Shown: positions 23,976 through 54,241 of the stretch, one piece after another
Layout of the letters: each line of letters opens with the position of its first letter
Numbering within the stretch: the first letter of the stretch is position 1
DNA from: Paracoccus sp. S1E-3
GTDB lineage: Bacteria > Pseudomonadota > Alphaproteobacteria > Rhodobacterales > Rhodobacteraceae
Direction of reading: 5' to 3'
Length of the DNA: 64,000 nt
Assembly (NCBI RefSeq): GCF_013868135.1
Contig: NZ_JACEMU010000004.1
Location: 124,001 to 188,000, forward strand
Made by a program: the position numbers and the translations under genes
The notes under the pieces: model-generated
What the model was told of the DNA's origin: nothing
The model's database searches: none
What the model saw: the letters and a program-made list of their open reading frames with translations, nothing else

Positions 23976-26499
<2,524 letters not shown>

Positions 26500-26546
26500 G
26501 GGAGTGCTAAGGTTTTATATTATTTATATCATTGGTTAGTGAATCG

Positions 26547-26556
26547 TCACTAGTGA
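26547..26556. promoter_or_regulatory. Palindrome upstream of the TIR gene
   Basis: TCACTAGTGA, a perfect 10-base palindrome, lies 18 bases before the preferred start of the TIR gene, just downstream of an AT-rich run (TTTTATATTATTTATATC, 26513-26530) that could hold a promoter. It may be an operator or simply promoter-region symmetry; no regulator gene is adjacent. Confidence 0.35.
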
Positions 26557-26574
26557 TCGTTAAAGGTGAGTAAC

Positions 26575-27429
26575 GTGACTGCATCATCGCTAAGAAATAA
26601 AATTTCCTCTCTCGAAAAGAAGATTGCCGACCTCCGAAAAAAGGACGCGCAAGAAGCGAAGAAGGAGTCCGATTTTAACGCAAAAGCTAATGCAGCCGAA
26701 GAGGCGGCCGCGAAAGCTAAGTCTCAATCAATCTCATCTTCGAAACGGCGCGAAGCAGTTTCTGCACGCAAACAAGCCGCGTCGGCGACTGCTAATCGCG
26801 CCAAGCTGGCAACGGATATCGCACGCAATAATGCTGAGCTGATGAAAATGCAAACCGCGCTGGCGAAGGAGGATGACAAGAGGCTCGCGAGCATCACGAA
26901 AGAAATTACACGACAGGAGGCGATACAGGCGCAACATCAGCGCCAAGAAGCAACCCGGGTTGTTGGCGCGATTTCTCACCGGATAGCAGCTGTAAGCCGC
27001 GAGGCAGGGGCATCTGCTGAGCAGTATGACGTATTTATTTCGCATGCTTCTGAGGATAAAGACGAGTTTGTCAGGGAGCTTGCCGAAAAAGCTGAATCTG
27101 CGGGGTTAAGGATTTTCTATGATGAAAGAAAACTAAAGTGGGGCGACAGTTTAAGAGAGCGAATTGAGCACGGTTTGGCAAATTCGCGCTTCGGTATAGT
27201 TGTTTTGTCGACGGCGTTTTTCCGCAAGGAATGGCCGAAACGAGAACTTGACGGTTTATTCAACCTTGAAATTGAGGGAAAGTCTCGGATTTTGCCCATA
27301 TGGCACAAGATATCCAAGGACGAAGTCATAAGGAATGCACCAAGTCTTTCGGGCAAGTTGGCACTGAGCACATCAAGCCTCTCGGTAGATGAAATTGTCG
27401 AAAAATTGATGGAGATTGCCGCAGTTTAG
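26575..27429 (+). CDS. Coiled-coil TIR-domain protein (PdTIR-like)
   Basis: About 284 residues in two parts. Counting from an alternative GTG at 26566, residues 10-145 are a Lys/Ala/Glu-rich coiled coil and 153-285 a TIR domain: YDVFISHASEDKDEFVREL, IFYDERKLKWGDSLRERI, FGIVVLSTAFFRKEW and the WxxxE motif W223-PKR-E227, whose Glu is the expected NAD-cleaving residue in TIR enzymes. GTG 26575 is preferred because AGGTGA lies five bases upstream. The layout matches the Paracoccus denitrificans TIR protein. Base composition is far more AT-rich than neighbours, suggesting transfer. No partner gene is adjacent. A defence or NADase role is inference. Confidence 0.9.
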   Translation: MTASSLRNKISSLEKKIADLRKKDAQEAKKESDFNAKANAAEEAAAKAKSQSISSSKRREAVSARKQAASATANRAKLATDIARNNAELMKMQTALAKEDDKRLASITKEITRQEAIQAQHQRQEATRVVGAISHRIAAVSREAGASAEQYDVFISHASEDKDEFVRELAEKAESAGLRIFYDERKLKWGDSLRERIEHGLANSRFGIVVLSTAFFRKEWPKRELDGLFNLEIEGKSRILPIWHKISKDEVIRNAPSLSGKLALSTSSLSVDEIVEKLMEIAAV

Positions 27430-27574
27430 TTTATCAACGCGGAGAGCTGACTCACTGAACTGACACTGACAAGCCCAGCTTGGAACAACGGTCTTGAGCC
27501 CCGCCGAGCGAGCAGCCAGCCAAAATAAAACGGCCGACCTATCAACGGGGCGTTCCGATCCATAGAAGCATAGC

Positions 27575-29413
27575 CTACTCTGGCAGCACCCTTACCGCGC
27601 CCTTGTCGGCACTTGCCGCGAAGGCCGCATAGGCTTTCAGCGCCGTGGTGACGTTGCGCTTGCGCTTCTCGGCCGGGTGCCAGCCGATCTCGTTCTGATG
27701 GGTGCGACGCGCCGCCAGTTCGGCCTCGGGCACCGCCAGATGGATGGTGCGGTTGGGGATGTCGATCTCGATCAGATCGCCGTCGCGCACCAGCCCGATG
27801 GTGCCGCCCTGCGCCGCCTCGGGTGAGGCATGGCCGATGGACAGGCCCGAAGTGCCGCCCGAGAAGCGGCCATCGGTGACAAGCGCGCAGGCCTTGCCGA
27901 GGCCCTTCGACTTCAGATAGCTGGTCGGATACAGCATTTCCTGCATCCCCGGACCGCCTTTCGGGCCTTCATAGCGGATGACCACCACATCGCCTTCCTT
28001 GACCTTGCCGGTCAGGATGCCGCTGACCGCCGCGTCCTGGCTTTCATAGACCACGGCGGGACCGGCGAATTTCAGGATCGATTCATCGACGCCCGCCGTC
28101 TTCACGATGCAGCCATCCAGCGCGATATTACCCTTCAGCACCGCCAGCCCGCCATCGGCCGAGAAGGGCGAGTTGACGGAACGGATCACCCCGCCCTGAC
28201 GGTCCAGATCCAGCGTTTCCCACCGCGCGCTCTGGCTGAAGGCCACCTGCGTCGGCACGCCGCCGGGGGCCGCCGAATAGAATTTGTGCACTGCCGGGTC
28301 GTTGGTGCGCGAGATGTCCCATTGGTCGATGGCATCGCCAAGCGTGGCTGCGTGGACGGTCGGGCTGTCGCGGTTGATCAGCCCGCCGCGATCCAGCTGG
28401 CCGAGGATCGCCATGATGCCGCCGGCGCGGTGCACGTCCTCCATATGCACGTCCTGCTTGGCGGGCGCGACCTTGGACAGGCAGGGCACCTTGCGGCTCA
28501 GCGCGTCGATATCCGCCATGTCGAAATCGATCCCGCCCTCATAGGCGGCGGCGAGGATATGCAGCACCGTATTCGTCGATCCGCCCATGGCGATATCCAG
28601 CGACATGGCGTTTTCGAACGCCTTCTTGTTGGCGACCGAGCGCGGCAGGACGCTGGTATCCTCCTGCTCGTAATAGCGTTTCGCGAGGCCGACGATGCGC
28701 TGACCGGCTTCCTCGAACAGGCGCTGACGGTCGGCATGGGTGGCGAGCGTCGAGCCGTTGCCGGGCAGGGACAGGCCAAGCGCCTCGGTCAGGCAGTTCA
28801 TCGAATTGGCCGTGAACATGCCCGAACAGGACCCGCAGGTCGGGCAGGCGGAGCGTTCGATGGTTGCCACATCCTCGTCGCTGACCCTGTCATCGGCGGC
28901 GGCGACCATGGCGTCGACCAGATCCAGCGCATGCAGCTTGCCGTCCTGCAGGACAACCTTGCCGGCCTCCATCGGGCCGCCCGAGACGAAGATCGCGGGG
29001 ATGTTCAGCCGCATCGCCGCATTCAGCATGCCGGGGGTGATCTTGTCGCAGTTCGAGATGCAGACCATGGCATCGGCGCAATGGGCGTTGACCATGTATT
29101 CCACGCTGTCGGCGATGATCTCGCGCGAGGGCAGCGAATACAGCATCCCGTCATGACCCATGGCGATGCCGTCATCGACGGCGATGGTGTTGAATTCCTT
29201 GGCGACGCCGCCGGCCTTTTCGACCTCGCGCGCGACCAGTTGGCCCAGATCCTTCAGATGGACATGGCCGGGCACGAACTGGGTGAAACTGTTCACGATG
29301 GCGATGATCGGCTTGCCGAAATCGCCGTCCTTCATCCCCGTCGCACGCCATAGACCGCGCGCGCCGGCCATATTGCGGCCATGGGTCGAGGTGCGGGAGC
29401 GATAGGCGGGCAT
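27575..29413 (-). CDS. ilvD: Dihydroxy-acid dehydratase
   Basis: A 612-residue IlvD, dehydrating dihydroxy acids in isoleucine/valine synthesis using an Fe-S cluster. Cluster and active-site motifs are present: [46 protein letters not shown], and the C-terminal [21 protein letters not shown]. Normal length ([22 protein letters not shown] start). Transcribed alone on the reverse strand. Confidence 0.98.
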
Positions 29414-54157: not shown

Positions 54158-54241
54158 TGGTAGGGGTGGTCGGACTCGAACCGACACTTCTTGCGAAAAC
54201 GGATTTTGAATCCGTCGCGTCTACCATTCCGCCACACCCCC
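54158..54241 (-). tRNA. tRNA-Leu (anticodon CAA)
   Basis: The acceptor arms GGGGGTG and CACCCCT pair with one G-T wobble; the anticodon stem ACGGA/TCCGT encloses loop TTCAAAA with anticodon CAA (reads UUG); a long variable arm (class II) and the T arm GTCGGTTCGAGTCCGAC follow. Discriminator A and an encoded CCA complete the 84-base gene. Confidence 0.95.

Follow-up and report, generated by a model that had tools for sequence, protein, structure and literature searches.

A candidate autonomous TIR NADase of the PDC-S66 family in Paracoccus sp. S1E-3 and its phage-borne relatives

The stretch of DNA analysed here (64,000 nucleotides of Paracoccus sp. S1E-3, hereafter the window) contains a gene that fairly probably encodes a laterally acquired, self-contained TIR NADase serving in abortive-infection defence against phages. 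Judging from its profile match, the gene is a fresh member of an already named candidate family, PDC-S66, and not a system of an unknown kind. The PADLOC model of this single-gene candidate aligns with the window protein from end to end (residues 6-284 of 287 against model positions 3-279 of 282, E 1.1e-93), leaving no visible difference between the two, and the same profile recognises all nine family members tested, PdTIR of Paracoccus denitrificans included. In PHROGs, the protein corresponds to phrog_15646 (residues 7-284, E 1.3e-74). An excerpt of the source for PDC-S66 describes it as an uncharacterised candidate (PMC12482510). The defence role proposed by the first-pass annotation is favoured by genomic context and by phage carriage, as detailed below, although our searches of open-access literature found no anti-phage assay for any PDC-S66 member.

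An AT-rich gene in a variable site

The TIR gene is read on the forward strand between a proB-like gene (25387-26499, forward strand) and an ilvD-like gene (27575-29413, reverse strand), names that we presume from the sequences of the flanks and not from a family scan. It was listed as an intact open reading frame of 287 codons starting with a GTG at position 26566 and ending at 27429. The true start is probably the GTG at 26575 (coding sequence 26575-27429; 284 residues, with the motif residues becoming W220 and E224), since in our protein alignment (A1) each of the other 15 rows has its first residue at the column of V4. All nine rows with a single candidate start codon do so, and PdTIR begins two residues after that column in an alignment of nine sequences. 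Residue numbers in this text are counted from 26566.

The gene had been singled out as an AT-rich, one-gene island, and its composition bears this out. The GC content of the reading frame is 0.490 (0.476 for 26513-27430) versus 0.650 window-wide, the lowest value among other 864-base stretches (those starting outside 25700-27500) is 0.575, and the segment 26581-26640 has exactly 24 G or C among its 60 bases. At third codon positions, the value is 0.495 versus 0.83-0.90 in seven neighbouring genes. Only the earlier figure of near 70 percent for the flanks was slightly high, as the flanking genes measure 0.661, 0.698 and 0.652. Recoding the TIR protein with the codon usage of the seven neighbours predicts a GC content of 0.621, compared with the observed 0.490, so amino-acid content accounts for only part of the AT-richness. 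The upstream region (26500-26565, forward strand; GC 0.33) is also AT-rich and includes, just 5' of the start, a perfect 10-bp palindrome, TCACTAGTGA (26547-26556). This palindrome, picked post hoc, has its sole window copy there and is a possible operator.

The term island is further backed by comparison with relatives. The proB gene was matched in all 61 genus genomes searched. Among the loci examined, which are the best 30 of the 61 genomes, ilvD is within reach downstream of it in four (the genome under study, L030, L031 and L033). The proB-ilvD gap measures 60 bp in L033, which would place the inserted segment at approximately 26503-27575; it holds a 403-residue reading frame in L030, presumably chromate-transporter-like from its sequence, and a 173-residue one in L031. 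On these comparisons, the slot between the two genes is variable among relatives. The list of reading frames contains no mobility gene between the flanks, the repeats at the edges are short and none is convincing as a mark of insertion, and no tRNA gene is present at the locus, the single one of the window being at 54158.

The distribution of the gene is patchy. Within the genus, 6 of 125 genomes have a match at 1e-10 and two have a full-length one, namely the genome under study and G419. Solo homologues in Rhodobacteraceae, whose search the first-pass annotation had proposed, proved scarce: in a sample of 394 genomes, only two besides the window's own had matches at 1e-20, both over the TIR part only. 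A census with the PDC-S66 profile retrieved 3 genomes among 385 of the class and 3 among 398 of the phylum, in two overlapping draws that both include the window's genome; the other two genomes in each draw matched over the TIR part only. The gene was probably acquired laterally, as its closest relatives in our searches come from rhizobia (55-61% identity). In a tree of 34 rows, the window protein joins two Rhizobium proteins with support of 100/100, and then PdTIR and two viral contigs with 97/95; this topology has to be read with the long branches of L019 and L093, the unusual composition of the window gene and the partly hand-chosen start positions in mind.

The encoded protein combines an N-terminal helical hairpin (helices 6-50 and 54-146; 26581-27003, forward strand), predicted by AlphaFold and consistent with the alignable N-termini of the family, with a TIR domain at about residues 153-286 (27022-27423, forward strand). 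The latter is recognised by Pfam (TIR_2, residues 156-250, E 4.6e-20), by PDB matches, by AlphaFold and by Foldseek. The AlphaFold monomer, built from a 16-sequence alignment (mean pLDDT 83.5, pTM 0.45), displays two long helices followed by the TIR fold. The long N-terminal coiled coil initially described therefore stands as a long helical region, but one modelled as a hairpin of two helices and not as one continuous rod; Fourier heptad power was indecisive, with a period of 3.5 in helix 1 and of 3.6-3.67 in helix 2. The catalytic glutamate motif W223-PKR-E227 (27232-27246, forward strand) was confirmed at the positions first assigned to it, and its tryptophan and glutamate are invariant in all 34 aligned members. 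Among solved structures, the best matches are 3h16 (PdTIR), BtpA/TcpB, 7uxr (BtTir) and AbTir, mainly via the TIR part, and the top Foldseek matches are the TIR domains of the same four proteins. Mean relative entropy per ten residues is mostly 2-4 bits in the TIR domain, compared with 1.5-2.0 bits in the residues up to 110 and 0.8-1.5 bits in 111-150. In the alignment, the hairpin and its turn are thus moderately conserved across phyla, a pattern that would be easier to reconcile with a conserved cue or a role in the oligomer than with a rapidly evolving sensor of phage proteins.

Cellular and phage-borne relatives

Searches of genome contigs confirmed 21 of 48 candidate stretches, yielding 20 loci that span Pseudomonadota, Bacteroidota, Bacillota and metagenome-assembled genomes (MAGs) of a planctomycete, an archaeon and KSB1. 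In 15 of these loci, the tblastn match extends N-terminally to residue 16 or beyond, and the N-termini can be aligned across the 16 rows of A1 (which leaves out L008, L018, L020, L021 and L023). An all-against-all BLAST of 271 reading frames of at least 70 residues revealed no recurrent partner across the 20 cellular loci; shorter frames were examined only downstream, on the opposite strand. Besides near-copy loci, the clusters comprise one from five loci, tyrosine-integrase-like by sequence, and one two-locus cluster of TIR-bearing proteins (L005 and L015). The earlier suggestion that the gene travels alone is therefore upheld for neighbour families, the integrase-like cluster excepted.

Defence genes lie near several of these copies. 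The 90 neighbours at 16 of the loci (near-copies L008 and L022, the short L021, and L023, in which TIR comes first in another plan, being left out) matched 264 PADLOC families at 1e-10, and Pfam found an integrase in 5 of the 90. At least 6 of the 16 loci have, within about 3.5 kb, a defence or candidate-defence gene matched at 1e-20 or better; this is a lower bound because a table of its own was obtained for just 20 of the 90 neighbours. The copy of Rhizobium mongolense (L005, 6347-10412), the nearest relative at 61% identity, is flanked by a ThsB-like gene on one side and by a reverse transcriptase-TIR gene on the other. Other copies are accompanied by a type III restriction enzyme and an Argonaute (L011), by a type I restriction enzyme and methylase, a TIR effector and JetA (L012), by the candidate PDC-S21 (L013), by a SIR2 gene (L016; PDC-S25, 1e-29), by a methyltransferase (L019) or, more weakly at 1.5e-12, by a ThsB-like gene (L015). 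The remaining 10 of the 16 loci show no counted match at 1e-20 among the proteins inspected singly, and several adjoin ordinary genes. As a control, 116 reading frames were taken from these genomes in 17 of 20 stretches set at fixed coordinates and not drawn at random, one of the 17 being only 3.9 kb. They matched 22 families at 1e-10; the best, mad3 at 7e-33, was the sole one reaching 1e-20, and no restriction, Argonaute or Thoeris model was matched in these stretches.

Clusters of TIR genes were also observed: in L005, three TIR proteins are encoded close together, and on a plasmid of Priestia megaterium (L114:3001-6822) the family gene shares a stretch of 3.8 kb with two other genes annotated as TIR. 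Overall, 345 plasmid records match the family, three of them across 80% or more of the length. At L017, a neighbour with an RtcR-type match (1.6e-112) was discounted as a defence gene, being a sigma-54 activator by Pfam. In the window itself, PADLOC disclosed no clear defence neighbour of the TIR gene among 50 reading frames. The matches obtained there at 1e-10 (RTasRmuC at 4.1e-93, MzaA at 6.7e-47, mad3, mad8 and HerA) are presumed to be housekeeping look-alikes.

The family is also carried by phages. It occurs in 28 viral contigs, which form 15 clusters at 90% identity and include some cut or broken copies, and seven phage records matched, in four cases across 80% or more of the length. When the window protein was used for another viral scan, only the contig of L062, which was already known, came up. 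No near match to the cassette of the Klebsiella phage was present in the E. coli collection. In that phage, the TIR gene is opposed to the tail genes; in EFC-1 it lies between lysis genes and the integrase gene, and in phiOH2 between a metalloprotease gene and the integrase gene. These positions are typical of cargo genes. Other phage TIRs are located beside SLATT genes, for which a limitation of superinfection has been suggested in an excerpt of PMC9503650.

A small convergent gene in some phage copies

In several phage copies, a reading frame of about 73-80 residues on the opposite strand ends inside or at the 3' end of the TIR gene (overlap of 0-21 bp). This conserved gene of about 75 codons, convergent on the TIR 3' end in some phages, is new here; among the literature matches listed, none gave an account of it by title or start of the abstract. 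It adjoins the TIR 3' end on the reverse strand at L068:6865-7092, L067:6868-7110, L092:2875-3111 and L093:6634-6855, and is also present at L096-L110. Six of the small proteins align with ten invariant columns and match phrog_23021 and/or phrog_36840, with no significant Pfam family among them. AlphaFold predicts three helices (pLDDT 85.6, pTM 0.57).

Searched alone in viral contigs, the small gene gave 23 pattern matches resolving into 15 loci, and a TIR gene is adjacent and convergent in every one of them. Nine of these 15 loci are near-copies, which leaves about six distinct small proteins, and TIR-free homologues may be missed because the search was seeded by a short pattern. In the phages collection, all matches (the Klebsiella phage, phiOH2 in two records and EFC-1 in two records) are likewise at a TIR gene. 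Conversely, the small gene is present in 12 of the 28 viral contigs with a TIR gene, so that more than half, counted by contig names, are without it. It has no profile match in the window's own genome, nor in any of 12 bacterial genomes with cellular TIR copies, while two viral controls were positive; by eye, the 45-residue reverse-strand frame beside the window TIR gene (27426-27563) is unlike the small phage protein. Hence, a consistent partner, which the first-pass annotation named as evidence against its solo-gene reading, does exist in a subset, namely some phage-borne members, but was not found with the cellular members.

The small gene shares the orientation of adjacent tail or lysis genes, with the TIR gene opposed, in the Klebsiella phage and EFC-1 and also in contigs L068, L069 and L075, in which these tail or lysis genes were assigned by resemblance and strand; in phiOH2 and L110, it is placed between the TIR gene and the integrase gene. 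In one contig (L078:6001-6869), the TIR frame is broken to 174 residues and the small partner gene is kept. The small protein may be an inhibitor that the phage produces while it is itself growing. Along this line, we put forward, as a tentative and on balance doubtful proposal, that PDC-S66/PdTIR is a phage-spread abortive-infection NADase existing in two forms: a regulator-free chromosomal one, and a phage one in which the protein of about 75 residues quiets the TIR during growth of its own phage, as a self-immunity switch. If so, the hairpin of the solo form must itself provide this inhibition. Of the new leads of this work, the small phage partner lends itself best to testing and, should it be an inhibitor, would provide a natural and compact off-switch for a TIR NADase.

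Mode of action, alternatives and known systems

How might such a protein act by itself? The hairpin could hold the protein as a resting oligomer, oligomerisation being suggested by analogy with solved relatives, and would receive a cue of infection that acts as trigger. Upon clustering, the TIR domains would pack head to tail, with E227 completing a shared active site; NAD+ would then be cleaved to ADPR and/or cyclic ADPR, depleting the NAD of the Paracoccus host, and the infected cell would stop before phage release and so protect against the phage. Autonomous defence is plausible and favoured, though unproven, because of the full-length PDC-S66 match, the invariant W and E, the variable site, the defence neighbours, the phage carriage and the precedent of SpbK.

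Several other explanations have to be weighed against this one. Like ThsB, which activates ThsA in Thoeris, the TIR domain might produce a cyclic ADPR isomer to turn on an effector whose gene lies elsewhere, in which case the TIR gene would be half a system. The TIR part does resemble ThsB models (2.6e-35 and 3.7e-17), but the better match spans residues 151-285 only, i.e., the TIR domain; in the window, the neighbours are the proB-like and ilvD-like genes, with no adjacent ThsA gene. A potential effector is a SIR2-domain protein of 819 residues encoded on the same contig, 1.38 Mb from the TIR gene (L094:4133-6589, reverse strand; C4, about 1.528 Mb). Among the 50 window reading frames and this protein, it is the one member that both ThsA models match, but the match is confined to its SIR2 part (positions 12-219 of the 478 in the model). 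With codon-position GC contents of 0.55/0.38/0.54 within a high-GC genome, it is likely a separate defence gene. For Thoeris, the genome under study gave only this SIR2-part match, and a STALD search was empty, though its control was silent as well. No effector recurs beside family members, and we regard an orphan signal maker as unlikely. Equally, the presence of the small gene in the 12 viral contigs and in named phages might mean that the family works with this convergent regulator and that the window copy is a regulator-less, phage-derived leftover. This is decidedly unlikely, since the window reading frame is intact with all catalytic residues present, and intact copies occur in several phyla in genomes without a small-gene match. 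On the tree, presence of the small gene requires four changes, although it may still have had one origin.

Roles outside defence are less attractive still. The protein could remove nicotinamide from NAD-capped RNAs or trim NAD in normal growth, and PdTir, AbTir and BtpA indeed act on NAD-RNA in vitro, as reported in an excerpt of PMC10937652. Nonetheless, a spread restricted to two of 125 genomes in the genus, a foreign composition, and phage and defence-island contexts do not make a housekeeping pattern, and we give this regulator role little credence. Finally, several TIR relatives have been studied as effectors against host immunity (excerpts of PMC4203976 and others), which could suggest a mimic directed at eukaryotes for immune evasion; for a family whose members come from bacteria of the environment, from phages and from an archaeal MAG, this is most improbable.

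Autonomous defence, the favoured reading, gives a possible natural setting to a well-studied protein. PdTIR serves as a model for both the structure and the enzymology of bacterial TIR domains, and its placement, with the window gene, in a temperate-phage-borne, defence-adjacent family makes the natural role testable in harmless soil bacteria. Its full-length form is the 299-residue protein of G419 (L024:1504-2403), the last 154 residues of which are letter-for-letter those of chain 3h16. PdTIR and the window protein share genus, PDC-S66 membership, similar length (299 versus 287 residues) and the plan of an N-terminal helical part followed by TIR. The likeness in layout noticed at first is thus borne out, with 42% identity over 289 columns, N-terminus included, although the N-termini alone are weakly similar (33% over 80 residues, E 0.022). 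The motif reads WPQKE in PdTIR and WPKRE in the window protein, and PdTIR is not the nearest relative found, the rhizobial proteins being nearer. With a construct of residues 1-299, cleavage of NAD+ and activity on NAD-capped RNA by PdTir both depend on the glutamate, as far as the excerpt of PMC10937652 goes.

Among other known TIR proteins, AbTir and BtTir (7uwg, 7uxu, 8g83 and 7uxr) have the same fold with 52-54% TIR identity, a likeness borne by the TIR domains, the only parts among the PDB matches; active AbTir TIR forms filaments (excerpt of PMC11374754). A functional precedent is SpbK of ICEBs1, likewise a single gene combining an N-terminal domain with a C-terminal TIR NADase and acting by abortive infection, and validated as a one-gene TIR of similar plan (excerpts of PMC8880864 and PMC12847820). 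Its N-terminal part binds the phage portal YonE (excerpt of PMC11984713), and clustering of the TIR domains by the portal protein triggers NAD+ cleavage (excerpt of PMC12847820). The PADLOC model of SpbK does not match the window protein significantly (E 0.097, 10 bits), and a helical hairpin replaces the N-terminal domain of SpbK. By analogy, the window protein has the parts for an SpbK-like scheme.
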